A stretch of 64,000 nt of DNA from Eunapius fragilis (taxonomy: Eukaryota; Porifera; Demospongiae; Spongillida; Spongillidae). The notes below the pieces were generated by a model. The model saw only the letters and a list, made by a program, of their open reading frames with translations, was not told the DNA's origin and ran no database searches. The stretch is taken from NCBI GenBank assembly GCA_963681505.1, contig OY811986.1, positions 6,217,738 through 6,281,737 on the forward strand, given 5' to 3'. Positions 17,236 to 43,149 of this stretch are shown in pieces. The position numbers and the translations under genes were made by a program. Numbering within the stretch: the stretch's first letter is position 1; every line of letters starts with the position of its first letter.

Positions 17236-17879
17236 CAAATAGATTAGTGATTCCCACCCATACATTTCAATGGGAGAAAATTGGCTACATTCCCACCAAG
17301 GTGTCAATATAACAAACTAGTGGAGGTGCGATCCTACTGCATGGAACGAACGAGTAACCTGTTTTCTTTCTCAAAAAAATGTCTCCTCTATAATCAGCTC
17401 ATTGGTTTGGCTGCACCATGCAAATAGATTAGTGGTTCCCTCCCATACATTTCTATGGGAGAAAAATGGCTATCTTCCCACCAATGAGTTAATTGAACAA
17501 ACTAGTGGAGTTGCGATCTGTTTACATGGAACGAACGAGTAACCTGTTTCCTTTCTCTAAATAATGCCTCCTCTATATTCAGGTCATTGGTTTGGCTGTA
17601 CCATGCAAATAGATTAGTGGTTCCCTCCCATACTTTTCTATGGGAGAAAATTGGCTATCTTCCCACCAAGGTGTTAATATAACAAACTAGTGGAGTTGCG
17701 ATCCTACTGCATGGAACGAACGAGTAACCTGTTTTCTTTCTCAAAATAATGTCTCCTCTATAATCAGCTCATTGGTTTGGCTGTACCATGCAAATAGATT
17801 AGTGGTTCCCTCCCATACTTTTCTATGGGAGAAAAATGGCTATCTTCCCACCAATGGGTTAATTTAACAACCTAGTGGA

Positions 17880-17915
17880 CTTGCGATTCTTATTATTGCT
17901 CCGAATTGCTCCAGC
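17880..17915. other. Left satellite junction A1/B
   Basis: Abrupt switch from A to B. The A1 monomer that starts at 17768 runs normally to 'ttgcgattcttatt' (about 17896), roughly 129 bp into the unit, and is followed at once by 'attgctccgaattgctcc' of satellite B. I see no unique spacer, no target-site duplication and no transposon end. The exact base is uncertain by a few positions because 'tatt/att' can belong to either side. Confidence 0.9.
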
Positions 17916-18290
17916 ATGAGCGATTCGGAGCAATTCGTATGGACCAATTGCTCCCAATTGCTCCCGCGGGAGCGATTCGGAGCAATTCCTTTGGACCAAT
18001 TGCTCCCAATTGCTCCCGCGGGAGCGATTCGGAGCAATTCGTTTGGACCGATTGCTTCCGCGGGAGCGATTCGGAGCAATTCGTTTGGACCAATTGCTCC
18101 CAATTGCTCCAGCGGGAGCGATTCGGAGCAATTCGTTTGGAACAATTGCTCCCAATTGCTCCCGCGGGAGCGATTCGGAGCATATCGTTTGGACCAATTA
18201 TTCCCATTTGCTCCCGCATTCGTTTGGAGCAATTGCTCCCAATTGCTCCCGCGGGACCGATTCGGAGCAATTCGTTTGGACCAATTGCTC
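17900..18290 (+). repeat. B duplicated segment, about 2.0-kb offset, copy 1
   Basis: Shares ordered private variants with 19943-20290: 'gcatgagcg', 'cgtatggacc', 'attcctttgg', a 42-bp unit, then the fused unit followed by 'tttggagcaattg' (18223 and 20214). Offsets are 2043 bp early and 1991 bp late, a difference of one 52-bp unit. Confidence 0.65.
17960..17973. repeat. 14-bp perfect palindrome at the B unit boundary (example)
   Basis: 'gctcccgcgggagc' equals its own reverse complement and contains CCGCGG at the centre. It recurs in most B units. Frequent variants break the centre: 'cccgtggg', 'cccacggg', 'ccctcggg', 'cccgctgg', 'cccgcgtg'. With the longer stem it makes the array close to symmetric between strands. 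Confidence 0.9.
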
Positions 18291-18304
18291 CCAATTGCTC
18301 CCGC

Positions 18305-18356
18305 GGGAGCGATTCGGAGCAATTCGTTTGGACCAATTGCTCCCAATTGCTCCCGC
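18305..18356 (+). repeat. Representative B monomer with 20-bp inverted-repeat arms
   Basis: Arm 1 (18305-18324) is 'gggagcgatt' + 'cggagcaatt'. The spacer (18325-18334) is 'cgtttggacc'. Arm 2 (18335-18354) is 'aattgctccc' + 'aattgctccc', followed by 'gc'. The reverse complement of arm 1 differs from arm 2 at 2 of 20 positions. Each arm is itself two related 10-bp modules. The inner nine pairs, 'ggagcaatt'/'aattgctcc', match perfectly. A single strand, or its RNA, could fold into a 20-bp stem with a 10-nt loop in every unit. Confidence 0.9.
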
Positions 18357-19942
18357 GGGAGCGATTCGGAGCAATTCGGTTGGACCAATTGCTCCCAATT
18401 GCTCCCGCGGGAGCGATTCGGAGCAATTCGTTTGGGCCAATTGCTCCAAATTGCTCCCGCGGGAGCGATTCGGAGCAATTCGATTGGACCAATTGCTCCC
18501 ATTTGCTCCTGCGGGAGCGATTCGGAGCAATTCGTTTGGACCAATTGCTCCCAATTGCTCCCGCGGGAGCGATTGGGAGCAATTCGTTTGGACCAATTGC
18601 TCCCAATTGCTCCCGCGAGAGCGATTCGGAGGAATTCGTTTGGACCAATTGCTCCCAATTACTCCCGCGGGAGCAATTCGGAGATATTCGTTTGGACCAA
18701 TTGCACCCAATTGCTCCTGCGGGAGCGATTCGGAGTAATTCGTTTGGACCAATTGCTCCCGCGGGAGCAATTCGGAGCAATTCGTTTGGACCAATTGCTC
18801 CCAATTGCTCACGCGGTAGCGATTCGGAACAATTCGTTTGGACCAATTGCTCCCAATTGCTCCCGTGGGAGCGATTCGGAGCAAATCGTTTGGACCAATT
18901 ATTCCCATTTGCTCCCGCATTCGTTTGGACCAATTGCTCCCAATTGCTCCCGCGGGAGCGATTCGGAGCAATTCGTTTGGACCAATTGCTCCCAATTGCT
19001 CCCTCGGGAGCGATTCGGAGGAATTCGTTTGGACCAATTGCTCCCAATTGCTCCCGCGGGAGCGATTCGGAGCAATTCGTTTGGACCAATTGCTCCCAAT
19101 TGCTCCCTCGGGAGCGATTCGGAGCAATTCGTTTGGACCGATTGCTCCCACTTGCTCCCGCGGGAGCGATTCGGAGGAATTCGTTTGGACCAATTGCTCC
19201 CAATTGCTCCCGCGGGAGCGATTCGGAGCAATTCGTTTGGACCAATTGCTCCCAATTGCTCCCGCGGGAGCGATTCGGAGCAAATCGTTTGGACCAATTA
19301 TTCCCATTTGCTCCCGCATTCGATTGGACCAATTGCTCCCTATTGCTCCCGCGGGACCGATTCGGAGCAATTCGTTTGGACCAATTGCTCCCAATTGCTC
19401 CCGCGGTAGCGATTCGGAACAATTCATTTGGACCAATTGCTCCCAATTGCTCCCGCGGGAGCGATTCGGAGGAATTCGTTTGGACCAATTGCTCCCAATT
19501 GCACCCGCAGGAGCGATTCGGAGCAATTCGTTTGGACCAATTGCTCCCAATTGCTCCCGCGGGAGCAATTCGGAGCAAATCGTTTTGACCAATTATTCCC
19601 ATTTGCTCCCGCATTCGTTTGGACCAATTGTTCCCTATTGCTCCCGCGTGACCGATTCGGAGCAATTCGTTTGGACTAATTGCTCCCAATTGCTCCCACG
19701 GGAGCGATTCGGAGCAATTCGTTTGGACCAATTGCTCCCAATTGCTCCCTCGGGAGCGATTCGGAGGAATTCGTTTGGACCAATTGCTCCCAATTGCTCC
19801 CGTGGAAGCGATTCGGAGCAATTCGTTTGGACCAATTGCTCCCAATTGCTCCCTCGGGAGCGATTCGGAGGAATTCGTTTGGACCAATTGCTCCCAATTG
19901 CTCCCACTGGAGCGATTCGGAGCAATTCGTTTGAACCAATGC

Positions 19943-20290
19943 TCTTAATTGCTCCTGCATGAGCGATTCGGAGCAATTCGTATGGACCAATTGCTCCCAA
20001 TTGCTCCCGCGGGAGCGATTCGGAGCAATTCCTTTGGACCAATTGCTCCCATTTGCTCCCGCGGGAGCGATTCGGAGCAATTCGTTTTGACCAATTGCTC
20101 CCGCGGGAGCGATTCGGAGCAATTCGTTTGGACCAAATGCTCCCAATTGCTCCCGCGGGAGCGATTCGGAGCAAATCGTTTGGACCAATTATTCCCATTT
20201 GCTCCCGCATTCGTTTGGAGCAATTGCTCCCAATTGCTCCCGCGGGAGCGATTCGGAGCAATTCGTTTGGACCAATTGCTCCCAATTGCT
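19943..20290 (+). repeat. B duplicated segment, about 2.0-kb offset, copy 2
   Basis: Second copy of 17900-18290, shorter by one 52-bp unit. It differs at several bases (for example 'cctgcatgag' against 'ccagcatgag'), so this duplication looks older than those further right in the block. Confidence 0.62.
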
Positions 20291-21839
20291 CCCGCTGGAG
20301 CGATTCGGAGCAATTCGTTTGGACCAATTGCTCCCAATTGCTCCCGCGGGAGCGATTCGGAGGAATTCGTTTGGACCAATTGCTCCCAATTGCTCCCGCG
20401 GGAGCGATTCGGAGCAATTCGTTTGGACCAATTGCTCCCAATTGCTCCCGCGGGAGCGATTCGGAGGAATTCGTTTGGACCAATTGCTCCCAATTGCTAC
20501 CGCGGGAGCGATTAGGAGCAATTCGGTTGGACCAATTGCTCCCAATTGCTCCCGCGGGAGCGATTCGGAGCAATTCGATTTGACCAATTGCTCCCATTTG
20601 CTCCTGCGGGAGCGATTGGGAGCAATTCTTTTTGACCAATTGCTCCCAATTGCTCCCGCGAGAGCGATTCGGAGGAATTCGTTTGGACCAATTGCTCCCA
20701 ATTAGTCCCGCGTGAGCGATTAGGAGCAATTCGTTTGGACCAATTGCACCCAATTGCTCCTGCGGGAGCGATTCGGAGCAATTCGTTTGGATCAATTGCT
20801 CCCGCGGGAGCAATTCGGAGCAATTCGTTTGAATCAATGCTCCCAATTGCTCCAGCATGAGCGATTCGGAGCAATTCGTATGGACCAATTGCTCCCAATT
20901 GCTCCCGCGGGAGCGATTTGGAGCAATTCCTTTGGACCAATTGCTCCCAATTGCTCCCGCGGGAGTGATTCGGAGCAATTCGTTTGGACCGATTGCTCCC
21001 GCGGGAGCGATTCGGAGCAATTCGTTTGGACCAATTGCTCCCAATTGCTCCCTCGGGAGCGATTCAAAGGAATTCGTTTGGTCCAATTGCTCCCAATTGC
21101 TCCCGCTGGTGCAATTCTGAGTAATTCGTTTCAACCAATTGCTCCCAATTGCTCCAGCGGGAGCGATTCGGAGGAATTCGTTTGGATCAATTGCTCCCAA
21201 TTGCTCCCGCAGGGGCGATTTGGAGCAATTCGTTTGAGCCAATGCTCCCAATTGCTCCAGCAGGAGCGATTCGGAGCAATTCGTAAGGACCAATTGCTCC
21301 CAATTGCTCCCGCTGGAGCGATTCGGAGCAATTCGTTTGGACCAATTGCTCCCGCGGGAGCGATTCGGAGCAATTCGTTTGGACCAATTGCTCCCAATTG
21401 CTTCCGCGGGAGCGATTCGGAGCAATTCGTTTGGACCAATTGCTCCCAATTGCTCCCGCGGGAGCGATTCGGAGGAAATCGTTTGGACCAATTATTACCA
21501 TTTGCTCTCGTATTTGTTTGGACCAATTGCTCCCAATTGCTCCCGCGGGAGCGATTCGGAGCAATTCATTTGGACCAATTGCTCCCAATTGCTCCCTCGG
21601 GAGCGATTCGGAGGAATTCGTTTGGACCAATTGCTCCCAATTGCTCCCGCGAGAGCGATTCGGAGCAATTCGTTTGGACCAATTGCTCCCAATTGCTCCC
21701 TCGGGAGCGATTCGGAGCAATTCGTTTGGACCAATTGCTCCCACTTGCTCACGCTGGAGCGATTCGGAGGAATTCGTTTGGACCAATTGCTCCCAATTGC
21801 TCCCGCGGGAGCGATTCGGAGCAATTCGTTTGGACCAAT

Positions 21840-22668
21840 TGCTCCCAATTGCTCCCGCGGGAGCGATTCGGAGCAATTTGTTTGGACCAATTGCTCCCAA
21901 TTGCTCCCGCGTGAGCGATTCGGAGCAATTCGTTTGGACCAATTGCTCCCAATTGCTCCCGCGGGAGCGATACGGAGCAATTCGATTGGACCAATTGCTC
22001 CCATTTGCTCCTGCGGGAGCGATTCGGAGCAATTCGTTTGGACCAATTGCTCCCAATTGCTCCCGCGGGAGCGATTGGGAGCAATTCGTTTGGACCAATT
22101 GCTCCCAATTGCTCCCGCGGGAGTGATTCGGAGGAATTCGTTTGGACCAATTGTTCCCATTTGCTCCCGCGGGAGCGATTCAGAGCAAATCGTTTGGACC
22201 AATTATTCCCATTTGCTCCTGCATTCGTTTGGACCAATTGCTCCCAATTGCTCCCACGGGAGCGATTCGGAGCAATTGGTTTGGACCAATTGCTCCCAAT
22301 TGCTCCCTCGGGAGCGATTCGAAGGAATTCGTGTGGTCCAATTGCTCCCAATTGCTCCCGCTGGTGCAATTCAGAGTAATTCGTTTCAACCAATTGCTCC
22401 CAATTGCTCCAGCGGGAGCGATTCGGAGCAATTCGTTTGGACCAATTGCTCCTAATTGCTCCCTCGGGAGCGACTCGGAGCAATTCCTTTGGACCAATTG
22501 CTCCCAATTGCTCCCGCGGGAGCGATTCGGAGCAATTCGTTTGGACCAATTGCTCCCAATTGCTCCCGCGGGAGCGATTCGGAGGAATTCGTTTGGACCA
22601 ATTGCTCCCAATTGCTTCCGCGGTAGCGATTCGGAACAATTCGTTTGGACCAATTGCTCCCAATTGCT
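21840..22668 (+). repeat. B duplicated segment, 2854-bp offset, copy 1
   Basis: Matches 24694-25522 with private variants in order: 'gagcaatttg' 21871/24725, 'gcgatacgga' 21967/24821, 'ggtgcaattcagag' about 22353/25207 and 'cttccgcggtagcg' about 22614/25468. Similarity stops where the unit with 'cccgctggagcg' begins. Confidence 0.75.
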
Positions 22669-22929
22669 CCCGCTGGAGCGATTCGGAGCAATTCGTTTGA
22701 ACCAATGCTCCCAATTGCTCCAGCATGAGCGATTCGAAGCAATTCGTATGGACCAATTGCTCCCCATTGCTCCCGCGGGAGCGATTCGGAGCAATTCCTT
22801 TGGACCAATTGCTCCTAATTGCTCCCGCGGGAGCGATTCGGAGCTATTCGTTTGGACCAATTGCTCCCGCGGGAGCGATTCGGAGCAATTCGTTTGGACC
22901 AATTGCTCCCGCGGGAGCGATTCGGAGCA

Positions 22930-24455
22930 ATTCGTTTGGACCAATTGCTCCCAATTGCTCCCGCGGGAGCGATTACAAAGGAATTCGTTTGGACCAATTG
23001 CTCCCAATTGCTCCCGCGGGAGCGATTCGGAGCAATTCGTTTGGACCAATTGCTCCCAATTGCTCCCGCGGGAGCGATTCGGAGCAATTCGTTTGGACCA
23101 ATTGCTCCCAATTGCTCCCGCGGGAGCGATTCGGAGCAATTCGTTTGGACCAATTGCTCCCAATTGCTCCCGCGGGAGCGATTCGGAGCAAATCGTTTGG
23201 ACCAATTATTCCCATTTGCTCCCGCATTCGTTTGGACCAATTGCTCCCTATTGCTCCCGCGGGAGCGATTCGGAGCAATTCGTTTGGACCAATTGCTCCC
23301 AATTGCTCCCGCGGGAGCGATTGGAAGGAATTCGTTTGGACCAATTGCTCCCAATTGCTCCCGCGGGAGCGATTCGGAGCAATTCGTTTGGACCAATTGC
23401 TCCCAATTGCTCCCGCGGGAGCGATTCGGAGCAAATCGTTTGGACCAATTATTCCCATTTGCTCCCGCATTCGTTTGGACCAATTGCTCCCTATTGATCC
23501 CGCGGGACCGATTCGGAGCAATTCGTTAGGACTAATTGCTCCCAATTGCTCCTGCGGGAGCGATTCGGAGCAATTCGTTTGGACCAATTGCTCCCAATTG
23601 CTCTCTCGGGATCGATTCGGAGGAATTCGTTTGGACCTATTGCTCCCAATTGCTCCCGCTGGAGCGATTCGGAGCAATTCGTTTGAACCAATACTCCCAA
23701 TTGCTCCAGCATGAGCGATTCGAAGCAATTCGTATGCACCAATTGCTCCCAATTGCTCCCGCGGGAGCGATTCGGAGCAATTCGTTTGGTACAATTGCTC
23801 CCAATTGCTCCCGCGGGAGCGATTCGGAGCAATTCGTTTGGACCAATTGCTCCCGCGGGAGCGATTCGGAGCAATTCGATTGGACCAATTGCTCCCATTT
23901 GCTCCTGCGGAGCGATTCGGAGCAATTCGTTTGGACCAATTGCTCCCAATTGCTCCCGCGGGAGCGATTGGGAGCAATTCGTTTGGACCAATTGCTCCCA
24001 ATTGCTCCCGTGGGAGCGATTCGGAGCAATTCGTTTGGACCAATTGCTCCCAATTGCTCCCGCGGGATCGATTCAGAGCAATTGGTTTGGACCAATTGCT
24101 CCCAATTGCTCCCGCGGGAGCGATTTGGAGCAATTCGATTGGACCAATTGCTCCCATTTGCTCCTGCGGGAGCGATTCGGAGCAATTCGTTTGGACCAAT
24201 TGCTCCCAATTGCTCCCGCGGGAGTGATTCAGAGCAGTTCGTTTGGACCAATTGCTCCCAATTGCTCCCGCGGGAGCGATTCGGAGCAATTCGTTTGGAC
24301 CAATTGCTCCCAATTGCTCCCGCGGGAGCGATTCGGAGCAATTCGTTTGGACCAATTGCTCCCAATTGCTCCCGCGGTTGCGATTCGGAGCAAATCGTTT
24401 GGACCAATTATTCCCATTTGCTCCCGTATTCGTTTGGACCAATTGCTCCCAATTG
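22930..24455 (+). repeat. B duplicated segment, 3729-bp offset, copy 1
   Basis: About 1.5 kb nearly identical to 26659-28184. 'gattacaaagg' is at 22971 and 26700. The unusual units 'ttgatcccgcgggaccg', 'cgttaggactaattg', 'ctcctgcggagcg' (1-bp-short arm) and 'gcggttgcgattcgg' recur in order. Confidence 0.82.
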
Positions 24456-24693
24456 CTCCCGCGGGAGCGATTCGGAGCAATTCGTTTGGTACAATTGCTC
24501 CCAATTGCTCCCGCGGGAGCGATTCAGAGCAATTCGTTTGGACCAATTGCTCCCGCGGGAGCGATTCGGAGCAATTCGATTGGACCAATTGCTCCCATTT
24601 GCTCCTGCGGGAGCGATTCGGAGCAATTCGTTTGGACCAATTGCTCCCAATTGCTCCCGCGGGAGCGATTCGGAGCAATTCGTTTGGACCAAT

Positions 24694-25522
24694 TGCTCCC
24701 AATTGCTCCCGCGGGAGCGATTCGGAGCAATTTGTTTGGACCAATTGCTCCCAATTGCTCCCGCGGGAGCGATTCGGAGCAATTCGTTTGGACCAATTGC
24801 TCCCAATTGCTCCCGCGGGAGCGATACGGAGCAATTCGATTGGACCAATTGCTCCCATTTGCTCCTGCGGGAGCGATTCGGAGCAATTCGTTTGGACCAA
24901 TTGCTCCCAATTGCTCCCGCGGGAGCGATTGGGAGCAATTCGTTTGGACCAATTGCTCCCAATTGCTCCCGCGGGAGTGATTCGGAGCAATTCGTTTGGA
25001 CCAATTGTTCCCATTTGCTCCCGCGGGAGCGATTCAGAGCAAATCGTTTGGACCAATTATTCCCATTTGCTCCTGCATTCGTTTGGACCAATTGCTCCCA
25101 ATTGCTCCCACGGGAGCGATTCGGAGCAATTGGTTTGGACCAATTGCTCCCAATTGCTCCCTCGGGAGCGATTCGAAGGAATTCGTTTGGTCCAATTGCT
25201 CCCAATTGCTCCCGCTGGTGCAATTCAGAGTAATTCGTTTCAACCAATTGCTCCCAATTGCTCCAGCGGGAGCGATTCGGAGCAATTCGTTTGGACCAAT
25301 TGCTCCTAATTGCTCCCTCGGGAGCGACTCGGAGCAATTCCTTTGGACCAATTGCTCCCAATTGCTCCCGCGGGAGCGATTCGGAGCAATTCGTTTGGAC
25401 CAATTGCTCCCAATTGCTCCCGCGGGAGCGATTCGGAGGAATTCGTTTGGACCAATTGCTCCCAATTGCTTCCGCGGTAGCGATTCGGAACAATTCGTTT
25501 GGACCAATTGCTCCCAATTGCT
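24694..25522 (+). repeat. B duplicated segment, 2854-bp offset, copy 2
   Basis: Second copy of 21840-22668. It also seeds a later pairing with 28762 onward at 4062 bp, so this segment exists in at least three to four ordered copies, including one near 33830-34600. Confidence 0.75.
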
Positions 25523-26400
25523 CCCGCGGGAGCGATTCAGAGGAATTCGTTTGGACCAATTGCTCCCAATTGCTCCCGCGTCAGCGATTCGGAGCAATTC
25601 GTTTGGACAATTGCTCCCAATTGCTCCCGCAGGAGCGATTCGGAGCAATTCGTTTGGACCAATTGCTCCCAATTGCTCCCGCGGGAGCGATTCGGAGGAA
25701 TTCGTTTAGAACAATTGCTCCCAATTGCTCCCGCTGGAGCGATTCGGAGCAATTCGTTTGAACCAATGCTCCCAATTGCTCCAGCATGAGCGATTCGAAG
25801 CAATTCGTATGGACCAATTGCTCCCAATTGCTCCCGCGGGAGCGATTCGGAGTAATTCCTTTGGACCAATTGCTCCCAATTGCTCCCGCGGGAGCGATTC
25901 GGAGCAAATCGTTTGGACCAATTATTCCCATTTGCTCCCGTATTCGTTTGGACCAATTGCTCCCAATTGCTCCCGCGGGAGCGATTCGGAGCAATTCGTT
26001 TGGACCAATTGCTCCCAATTGCTCCCTCGGGAGCGATTCGAAGGAATTCGTTTGGTCCAATTGCTCCCAATAGCTCCCGCTGGTGCAATTCAGAGTAATT
26101 CGTTTCAACCAATTGCTCCCAATTGCTCCAGCGGGAGCGATTCGGAGGAATTCGTTTGGACCAATTGCTCCCAATTGCTCCCGCAGGAGCGATTTGGTGC
26201 AATTCGTTTGAACCAATGCTCCCAATTGCTCCAGCAGGAGCGATTCGGAGCAATTCGTAAGGACCAATTGCTCCCAATTGCTCTCGCGGGAGCGATTCGG
26301 AGCAATTCGTTTGGACCAATTGCTCCTGCGGGAGCGATTCGGAGCAATTCGTTTGGACCAATTGCTCCCAATTGCTCCCTCGGGAGCGATTCGGAGGAAT
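24700..26400 (+). repeat. B duplicated segment, 4062-bp offset, copy 1
   Basis: About 1.7 kb matching 28762-30462. 'gcgatacgg' lies at 24821 and 28883. The 'ggtgcaattcagagtaattc' unit becomes 'ggtgaaattcagag' in copy 2. The 'cgtcagcg', 'tttagaacaattg' and 'cgtaaggacc' units follow at the same spacing. Confidence 0.82.
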
Positions 26401-29400
26401 TCATTTGGACTAATTGCTCCCAATTGCTCCCTCGGGAGCGATTCGGAGCAATTCGTTTGGACCAATTGCTCCCACTTGATCACGCGGGAGCGATTCCGAG
26501 GAATTCGTTTGGACCAATTGATCCCAATTGCTCCCTCGGGAGCGATTCGTAGCAATTCGTTTGGACCAATTGCTCCCAATAGCTCCCGCGGTAGCGATTC
26601 GGAACAATTCGTTTGGACCAATTGCTCCCAATTGCTCCCGCGGGAGCGATTCGGAGCAATTCGTTTGGACCAATTGCTCCCAATTGCTCCCGCGGGAGCG
26701 ATTACAAAGGAATTCGTTTGGACCAATTGCTCCCAATTGCTCCCGCGGGAGCGATTCGGAGCAATTCGTTTGGACCAATTGCTCCCAATTGCTCCCGCGG
26801 GAGCGATTCGGAGCAATTCGTTTGGACCAATTGCTCCCAATTGCTCCCGCGGGAGCGATTCGGAGCAATTCGTTTGGACCAATTGCTCCCAATTGCTCCC
26901 GCGGGAGCGATTCGGAGCAAATCGTTTGGACCAATTATTCCCATTTGCTCCCGCATTCGTTTGGACCAATTGCTCCCTATTGCTCCCGCGGGAGCGATTC
27001 GGAGCAATTCGTTTGGACCAATTGCTCCCAATTGCTCCCGCGGGAGCGATTGGAAGGAATTCGTTTGGACCAATTGCTCCCAATTGCTCCCGCGGGAGCG
27101 ATTCGGAGCAATTCGTTTGGACCAATTGCTCCCAATTGCTCCCGCGGGAGCGATTCGGAGCAAATCGTTTGGACCAATTATTCCCATTTGCTCCCGCATT
27201 CGTTTGGACCAATTGCTCCCTATTGATCCCGCGGGACCGATTCGGAGCAATTCGTTAGGACTAATTGCTCCCAATTGCTCCTGCGGGAGCGATTCGGAGC
27301 AATTCGTTTGGACCAATTGCTCCCAATTGCTCTCTCGGGAGCGATTCGGAGGAATTCGTTTGGACCTATTGCTCCCAATTGCTCCCGCTGGAGCGATTCG
27401 GAGCAATTCGTTTGAACCAATACTCCCAATTGCTCCAGCATGAGCGATTCGAAGCAATTCGTATGCACCAATTGCTCCCAATTGCTCCCGCGGGAGCGAT
27501 TCGGAGCAATTCGTTTGGTACAATTGCTCCCAATTGCTCCCGCGGGAGCGATTCGGAGCAATTCGTTTGGACCAATTGCTCCCGCGGGAGCGATTCGGAG
27601 CAATTCGATTGGACCAATTGCTCCCATTTGCTCCTGCGGAGCGATTCGGAGCAATTCGTTTGGACCAATTGCTCCCAATTGCTCCCGCGGGAGCGATTGG
27701 GAGCAATTCGTTTGGACCAATTGCTCCCAATTGCTCCCGTGGGAGCGATTCGGAGCAATTCGTTTGGACCAATTGCTCCCAATTGCTCCCGCGGGATCGA
27801 TTCAGAGCAATTCGTTTGGACCAATTGCTCCCAATTGCTCCCGCGGGAGCGATTTGGAGCAATTCGATTGGACCAATTGCTCCCATTTGCTCCTGCGGGA
27901 GCGATTCGGAGCAATTCGTTTGGACCAATTGCTCCCAATTGCTCCCGCGGGAGTGATTCAGAGCAGTTTGTTTGGACCAATTGCTCCCAATTGCTCCCGC
28001 GGGAGCGATTCGGAGCAATTCGTTTGGACCAATTGCTCCCAATTGCTCCCGCGGGAGCGATTCGGAGCAATTCGTTTGGACCAATTGCTCCCAATTGCTC
28101 CCGCGGTTGCGATTCGGAGCAAATCGTTTGGACCAATTATTCCCATTTGCTCCCGTATTCGTTTGGACCAATTGCTCCCAATTGCTCCCGCTGGAGCGAT
28201 TCGGAGCAATTCGTTTGAACCAATGCTCCCAATTGCTCCAGCATGAGCGATTCGAAGCAATTCGTATGGACCAATTGCTCCCCATTGCTCCCGCGGGAGC
28301 GATTCGGAGCAATTCCTTTGGACCAATTGCTCCTAATTGCTCCCGCGGGAGCGATTCGGAGCTATTCGTTTGGACCAATTGCTCCCGCGGGAGCGATTCG
28401 GAGCAATTCGTTTGGACCAATTGCTCCCGCGGGAGCGATTCGGAGCAATTCGATTGGACCAATTGCTCCCATTTGCTCCCGTGGGAGCGATTCGGAGGAA
28501 TTCGTTTGGACCAATTGCTCCCAATTGCTCCCGCGGGAGCGATTCGGAGCAATTCGTTTGGACCAATTGCTCCCGCGGGAGCGATTCGGAGCAATTCGTT
28601 TGGTACAATTGCTCCCAATTGCTCCCGCGGGAGCGATTCGGAGCAATTCGTTTGGACCAATTGCTCCCGCGGGAGCGATTCGGAGCAATTCGATTGGACC
28701 AATTGCTCCCATTTGCTCCTGCGGGAGCGATTCGGAGCAATTCGTTTGGACCAATTGCTCCCAATTGCTCCCGCGGGAGCGATTCGGAGCAATTCGTTTG
28801 GACCAATTGCTCCCAATTGCTCCCGCGGGAGCGATTCGGAGCAATTCGTTTGGACCAATTGCTCCCAATTGCTCCCGCGGGAGCGATACGGAGCAATTCG
28901 ATTGGACCAATTGCTCCCATTTGCTCCTGCGGGAGCGATTCGGAGCAATTCGTTTGGACCAATTGCTCCCAATTGCTCCCGCGGGAGCGATTGGGAGCAA
29001 TTCGTTTGGACCAATTGCTCCCAATTGCTCCCGCGGGAGTGATTCGGAGCAATTCGTTTGGACCAATTGTTCCCATTTGCTCCCGCGGGAGCGATTCAGA
29101 GCAAATCGTTTGGACCAATTATTCCCATTTGCTCCTGCATTCGTTTGGACCAATTGCTCCCAATTGCTCCCACGGGAGCGATTCGGAGCAATTTGTTTGG
29201 ACCAATTGCTCCCAATTGCTCCCTCGGGAGCGATTCGAAGGAATTCGTTTGGTCCAATTGCTCCCAATTGCTCCCGCTGGTGAAATTCAGAGTAATTCGT
29301 TTCAACCAATTGCTCCCAATTGCTCCAGCGGGAGCGATTCGGAGCAATTCGTTTGGACCAATTGCTCCTAATTGCTCCCGCGGGAGCGACTCGGAGCAAT

Positions 29401-29700
29401 TCCTTTGGACCAATTGCTCCCAATTGCTCCCGCGGGAGCGATTCGGAGCAATTCGTTTGGACCAATTGCTCCCAATTGCTCCCGCGGCAGCGATTCGGAG
29501 GAATTCGTTTGGACCAATTGCTCCCAATTGCTTCCGCGGTAGCGATTCGGAACAATTCGTTTGGACCAATTGCTCCCAATTGCTCCCGCGGGAGCGATTC
29601 AGAGGAATTCGTTTGGACCAATTGCTCCCAATTGCTCCCGCGTCAGCGATTCGGAGCAATTCGTTTGGACAATTGCTCCCAATTGCTCCCGCAGGAGCGA
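25490..29700 (+). repeat. B segmental duplication of about 5.0 kb, copy 1
   Basis: Matches 30510-34770. The offset is 5020 bp through about 28600 and 5072 bp afterwards, so copy 2 holds one extra 52-bp unit. 'gattacaaagg' is at 26700 and 31720. The paired units 'ccccattgctcc' (28280 and 33300) and 'ggagctattcg' agree. Confidence 0.85.
26659..28184 (+). repeat. B duplicated segment, 3729-bp offset, copy 2
   Basis: Second copy of 22930-24455. Few base differences were seen (for example 'gggatcgattcgg' against 'gggagcgattcgg' in the 'tctctcggg' unit; 'caattggtttgg' against 'caattcgtttgg'). It lies within the larger 5-kb duplication and so has a third copy near 31679-33204. Confidence 0.82.
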
Positions 29701-30462
29701 TTCGGAGCAATTCGTTTGGACCAATTGCTCCCAATTGCTCCTGCGGGAGCGATTCGGAGGAATTCGTTTAGAACAATTGCTCCCAATTGCTCCCGCTGGA
29801 GCGATTCGGAGCAATTCGTTTGAACCAATGCTCCCAATTGCTCCAGCATGAGCGATTCGAAGCAATTCGTATGGACCAATTGCTCCCAATTGCTCCCGCG
29901 GGAGCGATTCGGAGTAATTCCTTTGGACCAATTGCTCCCAATTGCTCCCGCGGGAGCGATTCGGAGCAAATCGTTTGGACCAATTATTCCCATTTGCTCC
30001 CGTATTCGTTTGGACCAATTGCTCCCAATTGCTCCCGCGGGAGCGATTCGGAGCAATTCGTTTGGACCAATTGCTCCCAATTGCTCCCTCGGGAGCGATT
30101 CGAAGGAATTCGTTTGGTCCAATTGCTCCCAATAGCTCCCGCTGGTGCAATTCAGAGTAATTCGTTTCAACCAATTGCTCCCAATTGCTCCAGCGGGAGC
30201 GATTCGGAGGAATTCGTTTGGACCAATTGCTCCCAATTGCTCCCGCAGGAGCGATTTGGTGCAATTCGTTTGAACCAATGCTCCCAATTGCTCCAGCAGG
30301 AGCGATTCGGAGCAATTCGTAAGGACCAATTGCTCCCAATTGCTCCCGCGGGAGCGATTCGGAGCAATTCGTTTGGACCAATTGCTCCTGCGGGAGCGAT
30401 TCGGAGCAATTCGTTTGGACCAATTGCTCCCAATTGCTCCCTCGGGAGCGATTCGGAGGAAT
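28762..30462 (+). repeat. B duplicated segment, 4062-bp offset, copy 2
   Basis: Second copy of 24700-26400. Its second half (about 29500-30457) is repeated again immediately downstream with an offset of 958 bp. Confidence 0.82.
29500..30457 (+). repeat. B tandem duplication of 958 bp, copy 1
   Basis: Ordered rare units ('cttccgcggtagcg', 'cgtcagcg', 'tttagaacaattg', 'ccagcatgagcgattcgaag', 'ggtgcaattcagag', 'cgtaaggacc') occur here and again exactly 958 bp later. Confidence 0.78.
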
Positions 30463-31415
30463 TCGTTTGGACCAATTGCTCCCAATTGCTTCCGCGGTAG
30501 CGATTCGGAACAATTCGTTTGGACCAATTGCTCCCAATTGCTCCCGCGGGAGCGATTCAGAGGAATTCGTTTGGACCAATTGCTCCCAATTGCTCCCGCG
30601 TCAGCGATTCGGAGCAATTCGTTTGGACAATTGCTCCCAATTGCTCCCGCAGGAGCGATTCGGAGCAATTCGTTTGGACCAATTGCTCCCAATTGCTCCC
30701 GCGGGAGCGATTCGGAGGAATTCGTTTAGAACAATTGCTCCCAATTGCTCCCGCTGGAGCGATTCGGAGCAATTCGTTTGAACCAATGCTCCCAATTGCT
30801 CCAGCATGAGCGATTCGAAGCAATTCGTATGGACCAATTGCTCCCAATTGCTCCCGCGGGAGCGATTCGGAGTAATTCCTTTGGACCAATTGCTCCCAAT
30901 TGCTCCCACGGGAGCGATTCGGAGCAAATCGTTTGGACCAATTATTCCCATTTGCTCCCGTATTCGTTTGGACCAATTGCTCCCAATTGCTCCCGCGGGA
31001 GCGATTCGGAGCAATTCGTTTGGACCAATTGCTCCCAATTGCTCCCTCGGGAGCGATTCGAAGGAATTCGTTTGGTCCAATTGCTCCCAATAGCTCCCGC
31101 TGGTGCAATTCAGAGTAATTCGTTTCAACCAATTGCTCCCAATTGCTCCAGCGGGAGCGATTCGGAGGAATTCGTTTGGACCAATTGCTCCCAATTGCTC
31201 CCGCAGGAGCGATTTGGTGCAATTCGTTTGAACCAATGCTCCCAATTGCTCCAGCAGGAGCGATTCGGAGCAATTCGTAAGGACCAATTGCTCCCAATTG
31301 CTCTCGCGGGAGCGATTCGGAGCAATTCGTTTGGACCAATTGCACCTGCGGGAGCGATTCGGAGCAATTCGTTTGGACCAATTGCTCCCAATTGCTCCCT
31401 CGGGAGCGATTCGGA
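30458..31415 (+). repeat. B tandem duplication of 958 bp, copy 2
   Basis: Tandem copy of 29500-30457 with a handful of differences, for example 'cccacgggagcg' near 30904 and 'attgcacctgcgg' near 31340. These private changes make it possible to tell the copies apart in long reads. Confidence 0.78.
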
Positions 31416-34400
31416 GGAATTCATTTGGACTAATTGCTCTCAATTGCTCCCTCGGGAGCGATTCGGAGCAATTCGTTTGGACCAATTGCTCCCACTTGAT
31501 CACGCGGGAGCGATTCCGAGGAATTCGTTTGGACCAATTGATCCCAATTGCTCCCGCGGGAGCGATTCGTAGCAATTCGTTTGGACCAATTGCTCCCAAT
31601 TGCTCCCGCGGTAGCGATTCGGAACAATTCGTTTGGACCAATTGCTCCCAATTGCTCCCGCGGGAGCGATTCGGAGCAATTCGTTTGGACCAATTGCTCC
31701 CAATTGCTCCCGCGGGAGCGATTACAAAGGAATTCGTTTGGACCAATTGCTCCCAATTGCTCCCGCGGGAGCGATTCGGAGCAATTCGTTTGGACCAATT
31801 GCTCCCAATTGCTCCCGCGGGAGCGATTCGGAGCAATTCGTTTGGACCAATTGCTCCCAATTGCTCCCGCGGGAGCGATTCGGAGCAATTCGTTTGGACC
31901 AATTGCTCCCAATTGCTCCCGCGGGAGCGATTCGGAGCAAATCGTTTGGACCAATTATTCCCATTTGCTCCCGCATTCGTTTGGACCAATTGCTCCCTAT
32001 TGCTCCCGCGGGAGCGATTCGGAGCAATTCGTTTGGACCAATTGCTCCCAATTGCTCCCGCGGGAGCGATTGGAAGGAATTCGTTTGGACCAATTGCTCC
32101 CAATTGCTCCCGCGGGAGCGATTCGGAGCAATTCGTTTGGACCAATTGCTCCCAATTGCTCCCGCGGGAGCGATTCGGAGCAAATCGTTTGGACCAATTA
32201 TTCCCATTTGCTCCCGCATTCGTTTGGACCAATTGCTCCCTATTGATCCCGCGGGACCGATTCGGAGCAATTCGTTAGGACTAATTGCTCCCAATTGCTC
32301 CTGCGGGAGCGATTCGGAGCAATTCGTTTGGACCAATTGCTCCCAATTGCTCTCTCGGGAGCGATTCGGAGGAATTCGTTTGGACCTATTGCTCCCAATT
32401 GCTCCCGCTGGAGCGATTCGGAAAAATTCGTTTGAACCAATACTCCCAATTGCTCCAGCATGAGCGATTCGAAGCAATTCGTATGCACCAATTGCTCCCA
32501 ATTGCTCCCGCGGGAGCGATTCGGAGCAATTCGTTTGGTACAATTGCTCCCAATTGCTCCCGCGGGAGCGATTCGGAGCAATTCGTTTGGACCAATTGCT
32601 CCCGCGGGAGCGATTCGGAGCAATTCGATTGGACCAATTGCTCCCATTTGCTCCTGCGGAGCGATTCGGAGCAATTCGTTTGGACCAATTGCTCCCAATT
32701 GCTCCCGCGGGAGCGATTGGGAGCAATTCGTTTGGACCAATTGCTCCCAATTGCTCCCGTGGGAGCGATTCGGAGCAATTCGTTTGGACCAATTGCTCCC
32801 AATTGCTCCCGCGGGATCGATTCAGAGCAATTCGTTTGGACCAATTGCTCCCAATTGCTCCAGCGGGAGCGATTTGGAGCAATTCGATTGGACCAATTGC
32901 TCCCATTTGCTCCTGCGGGAGCGATTCGGAGCAATTCGTTTGGACCAATTGCTCCCAATTGCTCCCGCGGGAGTGATTCAGAGCAGTTCGTTTGGACCAA
33001 TTGCTCCCAATTGCTCCCGCGGGAGCGATTCGGAGCAATTCGTTTGGACCAATTGCTCCCAATTGCTCCCGCGGGAGCGATTCGGAGCAATTCGTTTGGA
33101 CCAATTGCTCCCAATTGCTCCCGCGGTTGCGATTCGGAGCAAATCGTTTGGACCAATTATTCCCATTTGCTCCCGTATTCGTTTGGACCAATTGCTCCCA
33201 ATTGCTCCCGCTGGAGCGATTCGGAGCAATTCGTTTGAACCAATGCTCCCAATTGCTCCAGCATGAGCGATTCGAAGCAATTCGTATGGACCAATTGCTC
33301 CCCATTGCTCCCGCGGGAGCGATTCGGAGCAATTCCTTTGGACCAATTGCTCCTAATTGCTCCCGCGGGAGCGATTCGGAGCTATTCGTTTGGACCAATT
33401 GCTCCCGCGGGAGCGATTCGGAGCAATTCGTTTGGACCAATTGCTCCCGCGGGAGCGATTCGGAGCAATTCGATTGGACCAATTGCTCCCATTTGCTCCC
33501 GTGGGAGCGATTCGGAGGAATTCGTTTGGACCAATTGCTCCCAATTGCTCCCGCGGGAGCGATTCGGAGCAATTCGTTTGGACCAATTGCTCCCGCGGGA
33601 GCGATTCGGAGCAATTCGTTTGGTACAATTGCTCCCAATAGCTCCCGCGGGAGCGATTCGGAGCAATTCGTTTGGACCAATTGCTCCCGCGGGAGCGATT
33701 CGGAGCAATTCGATTGGACCAATTGCTCCCATTTGCTCCTGCGGGAGCGATTCGGAGCAATTCGTTTGGACCAATTGCTCCCAATTGCTCCCGCGGGAGC
33801 GATTCGGAGCAATTCGTTTGGACCAATTGCTCCCAATTGCTCCCGCGGGAGCGATTCGGAGCAATTTGTTTGGACCAATTGCTCCCAATTGCTCCCGCGG
33901 GAGCGATTCGGAGCAATTCGTTTGGACCAATTGCTCCCAATTGCTCCCGCGGGAGCGATACGGAGCAATTCGATTGGACCAATTGCTCCCATTTGCTCCT
34001 GCGGGAGCGATTCGGAGCAATTCGTTTGGACCAATTGCTCCCAATTGCTCCCGCGGGAGCGATTGGGAGCAATTCGTTTGGACCAATTGCTCCCAATTGC
34101 TCCCGCGGGAGTGATTCGGAGCAATTCGTTTGGACCAATTGTTCCCATTTGCTCCCGCGGGAGCGATTCAGAGCAAATCGTTTGGACCAATTATTCCCAT
34201 TTGCTCCTGCATTCGTTTGGACCAATTGCTCCCAATTGCTCCCACGGGAGCGATTCGGAGCAATTTGTTTGGACCAATTGCTCCCAATTGCTCCCTCGGG
34301 AGCGATTCGAAGGAATTCGTTTGGTCCAATTGCTCCCAATTGCTCCCGCTGGTGCAATTCAGAGTAATTCGTTTCAACCAATTGCTCCCAATTGCTCCAG

Positions 34401-34770
34401 CGGGAGCGATTCGGAGCAATTCGTTTGGACCAATTGCTCCTAATTGCTCCCGCGGGAGCGACTCGGAGCAATTCCTTTGGACCAATTGCTCCCAATTGCT
34501 CCCGCGGGAGCGATTCGGAGCAATTCGTTTGGACCAATTGCTCCCAATTGCTCCCGCGGCAGCGATTCGGAGGAATTCGTTTGGACCAATTGCTCCCAAT
34601 TGCTTCCGCGGTAGCGATTCGGAACAATTCGTTTGGACCAATTGCTCCCAATTGCTCCCGCGGGAGCGATTCAGAGGAATTCGTTTGGACCAATTGCTCC
34701 CAATTGCTCCCGCGTCAGCGATTCGGAGCAATTCGTTTGGACAATTGCTCCCAATTGCTCCCGCAGGAGC
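30510..34770 (+). repeat. B segmental duplication of about 5.0 kb, copy 2
   Basis: Second copy of 25490-29700. Private changes include 'ggaaaaattcg' near 32422 and 'caatagctcccgcggg' near 33637. The longest uninterrupted frame of the window (822 codons, - strand, 31722-34190) lies here. It is open only because the repeat consensus lacks stops. Confidence 0.85.
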
Positions 34771-34779
34771 GATTCGGAG

Positions 34780-35608
34780 CAATTCGTTTGGACCAATTGC
34801 TCCCAATTGCTCCCTCGGGAGCGATTCGAAGGAATTCGTTTGGTCCAATTGCTCCCAATAGCTCCCGCTGGTGCAATTCAGAGTAATTCGTTTCAACCAA
34901 TTGCTCCCAATTGCTCCAGCGGGAGCGATTCGGAGGAATTCGTTTGGACCAATTGCTCCCAATTGCTCCCGCAGGAGCGATTTGGTGCAATTCGTTTGAA
35001 CCAATGCTCCCAATTGCTCCAGCAGGAGCGATTCGGAGCAATTCGTAAGGACCAATTGCTCCCAATTGCTCCCGCGGGAGCGATTCGGAGCAATTCGTTT
35101 GGACCAATTGCTCCTGCGGGAGCGATTCGGAGCAATTCGTTTGGACCAATTGCTCCCAATTGCTCCCTCGGGAGCGATTCGGAGGAATTCATTTGGACTA
35201 ATTGCTCCCAATTGCTCCCTCGGGAGCGATTCGGAGCAATTCGTTTGGACCAATTGCTCCCACTTGATCACGCGGGAGCGATTCCGAGGAATTCGTTTGG
35301 ACCAATTGATCCCAATTGCTCCCGCGGGAGCGATTCGTAGCAATTCGTTTGGACTAATTGCTCCCAATTGCTCCCGCGGTAGCGATTCGGAACAATTCGT
35401 TTGGACCAATTGCTCCCAATTGCTCCCGCGGGAGCGATTCGGAGCAATTCGTTTGGACCAATTGCTCCCAATTGCTCCCGCGGGAGCGATTACAAAGGAA
35501 TTCGTTTGGACCAATTGCTCCCAATTGCTCCCGCGGGAGCGATTCGGAGCAATTCGTTTGGACCAATTGCTCCCAATTGCTCCCGCGGGAGCGATTCGGA
35601 GCAATTCA
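34780..35608 (+). repeat. B duplicated segment, 3768-bp offset from 31012
   Basis: Matches 31012-31840 with the same order of rare units: 'tcgggagcgattcgaagg', 'ggtgcaattcagag', 'cgtaaggacc', 'cttgatcacgcggg', 'gattccgagg', 'gattacaaagg'. The run from about 35600 to 36100 then matches 32127-32627 at an offset of 3473 bp, so a piece was deleted or skipped between the two. Confidence 0.75.
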
Positions 35609-36629
35609 TTTGGACCAATTGCTCCCAATTGCTCCCGCGGGAGCGATTCGGAGCAAATCGTTTGGACCAATTATTCCCATTTGCTCCCGCATTCGTTTGG
35701 ACCAATTGCTCCCTATTGATCCCGCGGGACCGATTCGGAGCAATTCGTTAGGACTAATTGCTCCCAATTGCTCCTGCGGGAGCGATTCGGAGCAATTCGT
35801 TTGGACCAATTGCTCCCAATTGCTCTCTCGGGAGCGATTCGGAGGAATTCGTTTGGACCTATTGCTCCCAATTGCTCCCGCTGGAGCGATTCGGAGCAAT
35901 TCGTTTGAACCAATACTCCCAATTGCTCCAGCATGAGCGATTCGAAGCAATTCGTATGCACCAATTGCTCCCAATTGCTCCCGCGGGAGCGATTCGGAGC
36001 AATTCGTTTGGTACAATTGCTCCCAATTGCTCCCGCGGGAGCGATTCGGAGCAATTCGTTTGGACCAATTGCTCCCGCGGGAGCGATTCGGAGCAATTCG
36101 ATTGGACCAATTGCTCCCATTTGCTCCCGCGGGAGAGATTCGGATCAATTCGTTTGGACCAATTGCTCCCAATTGCTCCCGCGGGAGCGATTCGAAGCAA
36201 TTCTGTTGAACCAATTGCTCCCAATTGCTCCCGCGGGAGCGATTCGGAGCAATTCGTTTCGACCAATTGCTCCCAATTGCTCCCGCGGGAGCGATTCGAA
36301 GCAATTAGATTGGACCAATTGCTCCCATTTGCTCCTGCGGGAGCGATTCGGAGCAATTCGTTTGGACCAATTGCTCCCAATTGCTCCCGCGGGAGCGATT
36401 GGGAGCAATTCGTTTGGACCAATTGCTCCCAATTGCTCCCGCGGGAGCGATTCGGAGCAATTCGTTTGGACCAGTTGCTCCCAATTGCTCCCGCGGGAGC
36501 GATTCGGAGCAATTCGTTTGGACCAATTGCTCCCAATTGCTCCCGCGGGAGCGATTCGGAGCAATTCGATTGGACCAATTGCTCCCATTTGCTCCTGCGG
36601 CTGCGATTCGGAGCAATTCGTTTGGACCA

Positions 36630-36662
36630 ATTGCTCCCAATTGCTGCTGATTATACAGGAGG
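36630..36662. other. Right satellite junction B/A2
   Basis: B reads normally to 'cccaattgct' (ending at 36645), and 'gctgattatacaggagg' of inverted satellite A starts at 36646. The two sides share the 3-bp string 'gct', a possible microhomology. There is no spacer, no target-site duplication and no transposon terminus. The monomer phase differs from that at the left junction, so removing B would not restore one intact A monomer. Confidence 0.92.
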
Positions 36663-39600
36663 CATTATTTAGAGAAAGAAAACAGGTTAGTCGTTCGTTC
36701 CATGAAGTAGGATCACAACTACATTAGTTTGTTTTATTAACATTTTGGTGGGAAGAAAGCCAATTTTCACCCATTGAAATTTATGGGAGGGAACCACTAA
36801 TCTATTTGCAAGGTACAGCCAAACCAATGAGCTGATTATACAGGAGGCATTATTAAGAGAAAGAAAACAGGTCACTCGTTCGTTCCCTGAAGTAGGATCA
36901 CTACTCCATTAGTTTGTTTTATTAACACCTTGGTCGGAAGTTAGCCAATTTTCACCCATAGGAATGTATGGGAGGGAACCACTAATCTATTTGCATGGTA
37001 CAGCCAAACCAATCAGCTGATTATACAGAACGCAATATTTACAGAAAGGAAACAGGTACTCGTTCGTTCCATGAAGTAGGATCGCAACTCCATTAGTTTG
37101 TTTTATTAATACCTTGGCGGGAAGATAGCCAATTTTCACCCATAGAAATGTATGGGAGGGAACCACTAATCTATTTGCATGATACAGCCAAACCAATGAG
37201 CTGATTATACAGGAAGCATTATTTAGAGAAAGAAAAAAGGTTACTCGTTCGTTCCATGAAGTAGGATCGCAACTCCATTAGATTGTTTTATGAACACCTT
37301 GGTGGGAAGATAGCCAATTTTCACCCATTGAAATGTATGGGAGGGAACCACTAATCTATTTGCATGGTACAGCCAAACCAATGAGCTGATTATACAGGAG
37401 GCATTATTTAGAGAAAGAAAACAGGTTACTCGTTCGTTCCATGAAGTAGGATCGCAACTCCATTAGTTTGTTTTATTAACATTTTGGTGGGAAGATAGCC
37501 AATTTTCACCCATTGAAATGTATGGGAGGGAACCACTAATCTATTTGCATGGTACAGCAAAACCAATGAGCTGAATATACAGGAGTCATTATTTCATTAT
37601 TTAGAGAAAGAAAACAGGTTACTCGTTCGTTCCATGAAGTAGGATCGCAACTCCATTACTTAGTTTTATAAACACTATGGTGGGAAGATAGCCAATTTTC
37701 ACCCATAGAAATGTATTGGAGGGAACCACTAATCTATTTGCATGGTACAGCCAAACCAATGAGCTGATTATAGAGGAGGCAGTATTAATAGAAAGAAAAC
37801 AGGTTACTCGTTCGTTCCATGAAGTAGGATCGCAACTCCATTAGTTTGGTTTAACATCACCTTGGTGGGAAGTTGGCCAATTTTCACCCATTGATATGTA
37901 TGGGAGGGAACCACTAATCTATTTGCATGGTACAGCCAAACCAATGAGCTGATTATAGAGGAGGCAGTATTTATAGAAAGAAAACAGGTTACTCGTTCGT
38001 TCCATTAAGTAGGATCGCAACTCAACTAGTTTGTTTTATTAACACCTTGGTGGGAAGATAGCCAACTTTCACCCATAGAAATGGATGGGAGGGAACCACT
38101 AATCTATTAGCATGGTACAGCCAAACCAATGAGCTGATTATAGATGAGGCAGTATTTATAGAAAGAAAACAGGCTACTCGATTGTTCCATGAAGTAGGAT
38201 CGCAACTCAACTAGTTTGTTTTATTAACACCTTGGTGGGAAGTTAGCCAATTTTCACCATAGAAATGTATGGGAGGGAACCACTAATCTATTTGCATGGT
38301 ACAGCCAAACCAATCAGCTGATTATACAGGAGGCATTATTTAGAGAAAGAAAACAGGTTACTCGTTCGTTCCATGAAGTAGGATCGCAACTCCATTAGAT
38401 TGTTTTATTAACAACTTAATGGGAAGATAGCCAATTTTCACCCATTGAAATTTATGGGAGGGAAGCACTAATCTATTTGCAAGGTACAGCTAAACCAATG
38501 AGCTAATTATGCAGGAGGCATTATTAAGAGAAAGAAAACAGGTTACTCGTTCGTTCTCTGAAGTAGTATCACTACTCCATTAGTTTGTTTTATTAACACC
38601 TTGGTCGGAAGTTAGCCAATTTTCACCCATAGGAATGTATGGAAGGGAACCACTAATCTATTTGCATGGTACAGCCAAACCAATGAGCTAATTATACAGG
38701 AGGCATTATTTAGAGAAAGAAAACAGGTTACTCGTTCGTTCCATGAAGTAGGATCGCAACTCCATTAGTTTGTTTTATTAACATTTTGGTGGGAAGATAG
38801 CCAATTTTCACCCATTGAAATGTATAGGAGGGACCACTAATCTATTTGCATGGTACAGCCAAACCAATGAGCTGAATATACAGGAGTCATTATTTAGAGA
38901 AAGAAAACAGGTTACTCGTTCGTTCCATGAAGTAGGATCGCAACTCCATTAGTTTGTTTTATTAACACTATGGTGGGAAGATAGCCAATTTTCACCCATA
39001 GAAATGTATTGGAGGGAACCACTAATCTATTTGCATGGTACAGCCAAACCAATGAGCTGATTATAGAGGAGGCAGTATTTATAGAAAGAAAACAGGTTAC
39101 TCGTTCGTTCCATGAAGTAGGATCGCAACTCCATTAGTTTGGTTTAATATCACCTTGGTGGGAAGTTGGCCAATTTTCACCCATAGAAATGTATGGGAGG
39201 GAACCACTAATCTATTTGCATGGTACAGCGAAACCAATGAGCTGATTATAGATGTGGCAGTATTTAAAGAAAGAAAACAGGTTACTCGTTCGTTCCATGA
39301 AGTAGGATCGCAACTCCATTAGTTTGTTTTATTTACACCCTGGTGGGAAGATAGCCAATTTTCACCCATAGAAATGTATGGGAGGGAACCACTAATCTAT
39401 TTGCATGGTACAGCCAAACCAATGAGCTGATTATAGATGTGGCAGTATTTAAAGAAAGAAATCAGGTTACTCGTTCGTTCCATGAAGTAGGATCGCAACT
39501 CCATTAGATTGTTTTATTAACACCTTGGTGGGAAGATAGCCAATTTTCGCCCATAGAAATGTATGGGAGGGAACCACTAATTTATTTGCATGGTACAGCC

Positions 39601-40139
39601 AAACCAATCAGCTGATTATACAGGAGGCATTATTTAGAGAAAGAAAACAGGTTACTCGTTCGTTCCATGAAGTAGGATCGCAACTCCATTAGTTTGTTTT
39701 ATTAACACCTTGGTGGGAAGATAGCCAATTTTCACCCATAGAAATGTATGGGAGGGAACAACTAATCTATTTGCATGGCACAGCCAAACCAATCAGCTGA
39801 TTATACAGGAGGCATTATTTAGAGAAAGAAAACAGGTTACTCGTTCGTTCCATGAAGTAGGATCGCATCTCCATTAGTTTGTTTTATTAACACGTTGGTG
39901 GGAAGATAGCCAATTTTCACCCATAGAAATGAATGGGAGGGAACCACTAATCTATTTGCATGGTACAGCCAAACCATTGAGCTGATTATAGAGGAGGCAG
40001 TATTTATAAAAAGAAAACAGGTTACTCGTTCGTTCCATGAAGTAGGATCGCAACTCAACTAGTTTGTTTTATTAACACCTTGGTGGGAAGTTAGCCAATT
40101 TTCACCCATAGAAATGTATGGGAGGGAACCACTAATCTA
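36646..40139 (-). repeat. A2 junction-proximal, more divergent segment
   Basis: About 19 monomers with more private substitutions than the rest of A2: 'ggatcactactcc', 'gttggccaattttc', 'ctcgattgttcc', 'ttcaccatag', 'ggaggaagcacta'-like changes near 38460. A 7-monomer periodicity is still visible: 'aggagtcattattt' at 37581 and 38882 is 1301 bp apart, which is 1295 plus the net of an 8-bp gain and two 1-bp losses. Lower homogeneity near an array edge is usual for satellites. Confidence 0.7.
37587..37602. repeat. 8-bp tandem duplication inside one A2 monomer
   Basis: 'cattattt' occurs twice in a row where other monomers have it once ('ggcattatttagag'). The homologous monomer 7 units away (38882) has a single copy. 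It is a private length marker useful for anchoring reads. Confidence 0.85.
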
Positions 40140-43100: not shown

Positions 43101-43149
43101 TTGCATGGTACAGCCAAACCAATGAGCTGATTATACAGGAGGCATTATT

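Follow-up and report, generated by a model that had tools for sequence, protein, structure and literature searches.

A satellite A/B/A orientation switch on chromosome 16 of a freshwater sponge, Eunapius fragilis: a probable subterminal satellite mosaic

The satellite A/B/A switch described here probably forms part of a mosaic of subterminal satellites that was built from blocks of different origin. The window, i.e. the whole stretch of 64,000 nucleotides that was analysed, very probably belongs to chromosome 16 of Eunapius fragilis (C16:6217738-6281737), with its right edge 0.55 Mb short of the right chromosome end. In this window, two arrays of satellite A converge in opposite orientations on a block of satellite B. 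Judged from the sequence of the arms and joins, the reading of this arrangement as an inversion breakpoint is not supported.

Block layout and sequence of the joins

The assembly searched holds 218,937,333 bases in 24 contigs, and odEunFrag1.1 was published with 23 scaffolds (218.91 Mb) and a mitochondrion of 28.5 kb (PMC12616128). TRF assigned satellite A (period 185) to positions 1-17887 and 36646-64000 of the window and satellite B (period 52, 373.3 copies) to 17895-36645. A strand scan, in which the satellite core was allowed limited mismatches, recovered 97 A cores on the + strand of the left block (31 to 17786), 147 on the - strand of the right block (36789 to 63797) and 373 B cores on the + strand, with none on the -. 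A runs + to the left of B and - to the right, and the orientation switch reported in the first-pass annotation is real. The GC content of the three blocks is about 0.39, 0.53 and 0.385, and the GC skew passes from negative to positive at the right edge of B. No N occurs in the window. The blocks and their surroundings are listed in Table 1.

Table 1. Satellite blocks and joins in the window (two-dot positions), on the rest of chromosome 16 and at the left end of chromosome 3
Feature	Position	Strand	Remarks
Left A array, subfamily A1	1..17894	+	starts outside the window at ~C16:6205050, beside satellite C
Join J1, A1(+)/B(+)	17894..17895		flush
Satellite B, 52-bp monomer	17895..36645	+	
Join J2, B(+)/A2(-)	36645..36646		flush
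Right A array, subfamily A2	36646..64000	-	runs on to ~C16:6298196
J3, A2(-)/A2(+) flip	C16:6298197		+ for ~10 kb, ends near 6308061 at satellite E
Satellite C, chr16	~6202102-6202500, 6204501-6205000	-	as two stretches read
Palindromic satellite E, chr16	from about 6308061		right of A2(+)
GGGATTGGTAGT-type satellite D, chr16	6312 to 6380 kb (samples)		after E
Satellite C, chr16	6441 and 6470 kb (samples)	-	
Satellite C, chr16	6700 and 6741 kb (samples)	+	
A, chr3 left end	18-59 kb	+	
D, chr3 left end	100 and 140 kb	-	
A, chr3 left end	180 and 240 kb	-	
No satellite, chr3 left end	265 kb		
A(-)/A(+), chr3 left end	279 kb		
D and other sequence, chr3 left end	295 kb		
A, chr3 left end	320 kb	-	
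E, chr3 left end	360 kb	-	

At J1 (17894/17895), the + array of A ends in CTTATT and B opens with ATTGCTCC. At J2 (36645/36646), B ends in AATTGCT and A opens with GCTGATTATACAGG, the opening letters on the A side being GCTGATT. Spacer, extra bases and microhomology are all absent from both joins when these are read against the best-matching monomers. The base-level reading thereby bears out the earlier description of joins at about 17896 and 36645/36646, correct to about 2 bases, that carry neither spacer nor target-site duplication. The A phase is also unequal on the two sides, as had been noted: consensus position 122 of 185 is reached at J1 (5 substitutions in a 40-base fit) and position 181 of 185 at J2 (0 substitutions in a 40-base fit). 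Since A resumes in another orientation and phase and without duplication, B is not a target-site insertion into A and could not be removed from a single inverted pair. In searches of the genome with up to 3 mismatches, the 35-mer of J1 and the 24-mer of J2 matched no place besides their own. Each is a single copy with no second witness in the assembly.

It is unlikely that chimeric molecules or a mis-walk by HiCanu united A1, B and A2 from separate places. The ULI protocol includes PCR. The assembly relied on HiFi reads from this protocol and on HiCanu; it has 802 gaps, and 212 misjoins or missing joins were corrected in it. In the available text of that paper, no word beginning with "amplif" occurs (PMC12616128). 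Artificial palindromes have been described after whole-genome amplification (PMC6218980), and the finding of J1 and J2 once each would also suit an artefact. Against it stand the absence of N from the window, the presence of J3 in two diverged contexts and the contacts of B with A-family arrays elsewhere, though in the same assembly (see below). The repeats inside the blocks are also shorter than the mean read: the longest exact direct repeats measure 1223 (A+), 821 (B) and 1669 bp (A-), and the longest ungapped stretches of at least 99% identity 3233 (A+), 3424 (B) and 4935 bp (A-), to be set against 184.53 Gb in 18.74 M reads, i.e. a mean of about 9.85 kb (PMC12616128). Near-identical repeats of at most 4.9 kb thus favour a correct assembly path. 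The B block, at 18.75 kb, exceeds the mean read, so that a typical read cannot cross it, and proof of J1 and J2 can come from reads only.

Subfamilies of satellite A and the site J3

Monomers were compared from the left arm (164), the right arm (235), the third block (18 and 10), the subterminal array of chromosome 3 (63) and chromosome 7 (2). Left-arm monomers share a mean identity of 0.891 among themselves and 0.875 with the right arm. Right-arm monomers share 0.941 among themselves, 0.935 with the chromosome 3 array and 0.937 and 0.933 with the third block. The two chromosome 7 monomers match the left arm at a mean of 0.889, about equal to the value within that arm, and are the nearest relatives outside the block for 121 of the 164 left monomers. 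Eight diagnostic sites were chosen as differences between the left and right consensus, and are informative as to the non-overlap of the arms and the placement of chromosome 3 and the third block. At these sites the number of right-type states ranges from 0 to 5 in the left arm (164/164 monomers) and from 6 to 8 in the right arm (235/235), the third block (28/28) and chromosome 3 (63/63). The two monomers from chromosome 7 carry 6 and 2. Monomer comparison thus shows that A1 and A2 are different subfamilies with different histories.

An exact 40-mer of the left arm occurs at 16 places, every one within the left arm of chromosome 16. A1 is nevertheless not confined to this chromosome because of the chromosome 7 monomers, which suggests that A1 is not strictly private to chromosome 16 and weakens the case for its local growth.

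The first-pass annotation had placed B at an inversion or recombination breakpoint. In the sense that the A arms are two halves of a single array, parted by a genuine inversion at whose breakpoint B later filled in or amplified, this agrees with the opposite orientations and the flush joins, but the arms are not each other's closest relatives: left and right share 87.5% whereas right and chromosome 3 share 93.5%, and the left arm is nearer to the two monomers of chromosome 7. The A phases at the joins are unequal as well. Such an inversion appears improbable and, as far as the monomers can tell, largely refuted. Flipping A1 and B back to obtain one uniform array was considered and dropped, the arms being of different subfamilies.

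Beyond the window, the A2 array flips orientation at J3, which carries an 8-bp stretch matching A sequence. A second place in the genome, C3:279437, matches J3 at all but 1 of 34 bases, and at the sequence level J3 is shown to be an inversion site common to two chromosome ends. The two loci are 94.0% identical over 2.4 kb, 94.8% on the left, and identity in 185-column windows of the alignment ranges from 0.897 to 0.978. The flanks of J3 on chromosome 3 match other places of the chromosome 16 array at 95.4-95.5%, slightly above the stretch adjacent to J3. The flanks therefore add no support, any transfer would be old and the site alone argues for it. As both the subfamily and J3 are common with chromosome 3, A2 would belong to material moved between chromosome ends.

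Satellite B and the subterminal neighbourhood

Among 266 B units counted on chromosome 16, 247 carry the variant GATTCGGAG and 10 carry GATTGGGAG. Sampled B on chromosomes 2, 7 and 9 is mostly GATTGGGAG (the chromosome 2 set includes overlapping loci), and a sample from chromosome 5 yielded 0 of either variant. The B block also contains an inner duplication of 3.4 kb that is 99.7% identical (ungapped, lag 5020). Local amplification of B and A1 is suggested by their chr16-enriched variants, but A1-like states are also found on chromosome 7.

The B monomer folds in silico into a hairpin with z -3.9 (0/200 shuffles as good) and, in another rotation, z -3.7 (1/200); the A2 consensus, with z +0.72, forms no hairpin in silico. 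The B block of the window contains 166 perfect GCTCCCGCGGGAGC palindromes. On this predicted folding, the B monomer is plausibly a break-prone site.

The contact of B with A is not a one-off, contrary to the earlier picture of an unrelated satellite lodged at a breakpoint, since B touches A-family arrays on chromosomes 7 and 2 and comes within 6 kb of one on chromosome 9. On chromosome 7, B and A(-) adjoin near 714229, with one or two bases in between left unassigned. The last 28 bases of B are too symmetric there for a strand call, and the exact B unit just before them is +. On chromosome 2, satellite C, of the A family, passes straight into B, whose first ~50 bases are mixed in strand call and which then runs -. 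On chromosome 9, C(-) was found at 1248 kb, followed at 1254 kb by B(+). B itself changes strand at least 4 times between 648 and 714 kb of chromosome 7, where the sampled strand is + up to 670.4 kb, - from 670.5 to 675, + from 680 to 687.5, - from 688.4 to 690 and + from 700 to 714 kb. The one flip that was read there has a single place in the genome by exact search. On chromosome 2, B is followed at once by GG and then three TTAGGG units. On chromosome 5, 96 bases separate the end of B from a degenerate telomeric stretch, and the contig terminates in long TTAGGG.

Satellite C has a period of 185 bp and is 68.5% alike to A2, compared with at most 55% in a control of 10 shuffles at every third rotation. 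On chromosome 16, samples at 6420, 6541, 6580, 6620, 6660, 6770, 6800 and 6820 kb gave no match to A, C, D or E. Among the matches listed, A and B places occur at no fewer than 12 chromosome ends, always at most 1.31 Mb from the end, and thus cluster in terminal zones that together make up 27.5% of the genome. The corresponding f^12 = 1.9e-7 is rough, as the threshold was set post hoc on 100 of 361 B and 100 of 2251 A exact matches listed; the other lists, of 37, 31 and 56 places, are full. Chromosome 3 carries A at both ends. A fixed orientation of A relative to the telomere was considered and dropped, the left end of chromosome 3 being mixed and C4 having both strands near its end. A centromeric reading is likewise weakened by the A arrays at both ends of chromosome 3 and by the order of the match list.

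No match was found in the phage and plasmid collections with one 1601-base query each, in the genome contigs collection with a B 40-mer, in the viral contigs collection with an A 42-mer, or in Rfam at gathering scores.

Known arrangements and a proposed origin

The nearest described arrangement that was found is the macro-dyad symmetry of the major and minor satellites of Tribolium madens (Veseljak et al. 2026, PMC13081366), which the available text presents as documented only in Tribolium until then. Common to both systems are inverted subarrays that range from kb up to tens of kb in length, two intermingled satellites and monomers containing short inverted repeats; in the sponge, an inversion site found at more than one locus is seen at J3 only. 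The Tribolium dyads are putatively (peri)centromeric and oppose two subarrays of one satellite, whereas the sponge block is subterminal and has arms of unlike subfamily around B. Two inverted subarrays of the same satellite meet at J3 alone, as A2(-)/A2(+), and not across A1/B/A2. Inversion sites are conserved in Tribolium, with 2044 copies of one type (PMC13081366), whereas in the sponge a single place each was found for J1 and J2, with up to 3 mismatches allowed, and for the chromosome 7 B flip, by exact search, and two places for J3.

A selected large dyad structure with a function at centromeres or chromosome ends, as proposed for the Tribolium macro-dyads, is improbable here. Arms opposed across tens of kb, a 185-bp monomer, a B that forms hairpins in silico and a J3 common to two chromosomes would suit it; against it speak the unlike subfamilies of the arms, the finding of J1 and J2 nowhere else and the presence of A at both ends of chromosome 3. 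Moreover, the 100 of 2251 exact matches listed for the A 42-mer start at C3, hence none would lie on C1 or C2 if the list is contig-ordered, as it appears, and this absence covers the exact 42-mer only, diverged copies there being possible. That B expanded where it now stands, out of a short seed at an older contact of A1 with A2, is very improbable: chromosome 16 B is mostly the local variant (247 GATTCGGAG against 10 GATTGGGAG), but such homogenisation suits any old B block, and B lies on other ends and touches A-family arrays there at other join points.

We class the block among subterminal satellite mosaics. The subterminal repeats of apes are a case of satellite turnover between chromosome ends. 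The sponge resembles them in having satellite blocks common to non-homologous ends, here chromosomes 16 and 3 through the A2 subfamily and J3, and in the short telomere-repeat relics beside B on chromosomes 2 and 5; the likeness is one of description. Orientation switches inside tandem arrays, some polymorphic, are also described for primate alpha satellite, but those are centromeric, extend to Mb scale (3.2 Mb in one case) and were checked with native ultra-long reads (PMC11062924). A narrow search of the open literature found no paper that treats satellite DNA and tandem repeats together in sponges (Porifera), which does not prove that there is none.

Under the mosaic reading, breakage, template switching and end-to-end exchange during subterminal turnover would join blocks of unlike origin. 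Hairpin-rich B may break or stall replication, and the broken ends would take up other satellite blocks in either orientation. A2 could have been moved by ectopic exchange or by break-induced copying, in either direction, and the opposed orientation of A1 and A2 would be set by which block end joined B. The joins as read would fit blunt end joining at J1 and J2 and a template switch at J3. We think that the arrangement needs no function to explain it. More speculative, and doubtful on present evidence, is the idea of opposed-arm modules at sponge chromosome ends, with inversion sites copied between chromosomes and the hairpin-forming B as the reverser, which would be a convergent counterpart of the Tribolium dyads outside insects and centromeres.

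A striking A/B/A satellite inversion can thus be a join of different subfamilies, and typing of the arms decides this from sequence alone. Eunapius fragilis gives an example, from a sponge, of satellite arrays that switch orientation near chromosome ends. One of the switch sites is common to two chromosomes, which makes exchange between ends testable in reads and in sister species.

Orientation changes and their flanks

A single A(-)|A(+) inversion site is shared by two chromosomes, 16 and 3, and an 8-bp stretch within it matches satellite A. Satellite B of chromosome 7 (C7:648-714 kb) also changes strand, at least four times in the stretches sampled (L084, L092, L093, L113-L115); in the single flip that was read at base level, the switch lies at AATT, which is common to both strands. 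The left edge of this array lies next to C7:646501-647690 (L083, 1-1190), a putative LTR-retrotransposon pol end by visual inspection.

Inversion sites in satellite A and telomere-repeat relics beside satellite B
Feature	Chromosomal position	Stretch
A(-)/A(+) inversion site, chromosome 16 copy	C16:6298189-6298222	L082
A(-)/A(+) inversion site, chromosome 3 copy	C3:279437-279470	L138
TTAGGG relic by B	C2:17622348	L086, around 948
TTAGGG relic by B	C5	L137, around 966

Relatives and duplication of satellite A

A pair of A monomers close to the left terminus of chromosome 7 (C7:24001-24600, L094), one resembling the left arm (A1) and the other the right arm (A2), provides the nearest relatives outside their own block for 121 of the 164 left-arm monomers. 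In the right A(-) array (36646-64000 of the window), a 4935-bp stretch recurs at a lag of 5365 with 99.9% identity and is a recent duplication of a large unit.

Contig ends and palindromic satellites

Short TTAGGG relics lie next to B arrays on C2 and C5, and on C2 satellite B runs into three such units. A subterminal sequence, compared by eye, is common to the contig ends at the C16 start (L081), C2 end (L096) and C16 end (L095), in opposite orientation; one open stretch resembles, also by eye, a SET-type domain. Other satellites nearby (L089, L099, L105, L122) appear palindromic, and for satellite E, which borders the A2(+) block on chromosome 16, an 18-bp perfect palindrome was verified. 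Repeat units prone to hairpin formation may thus be frequent across this satellite zone.
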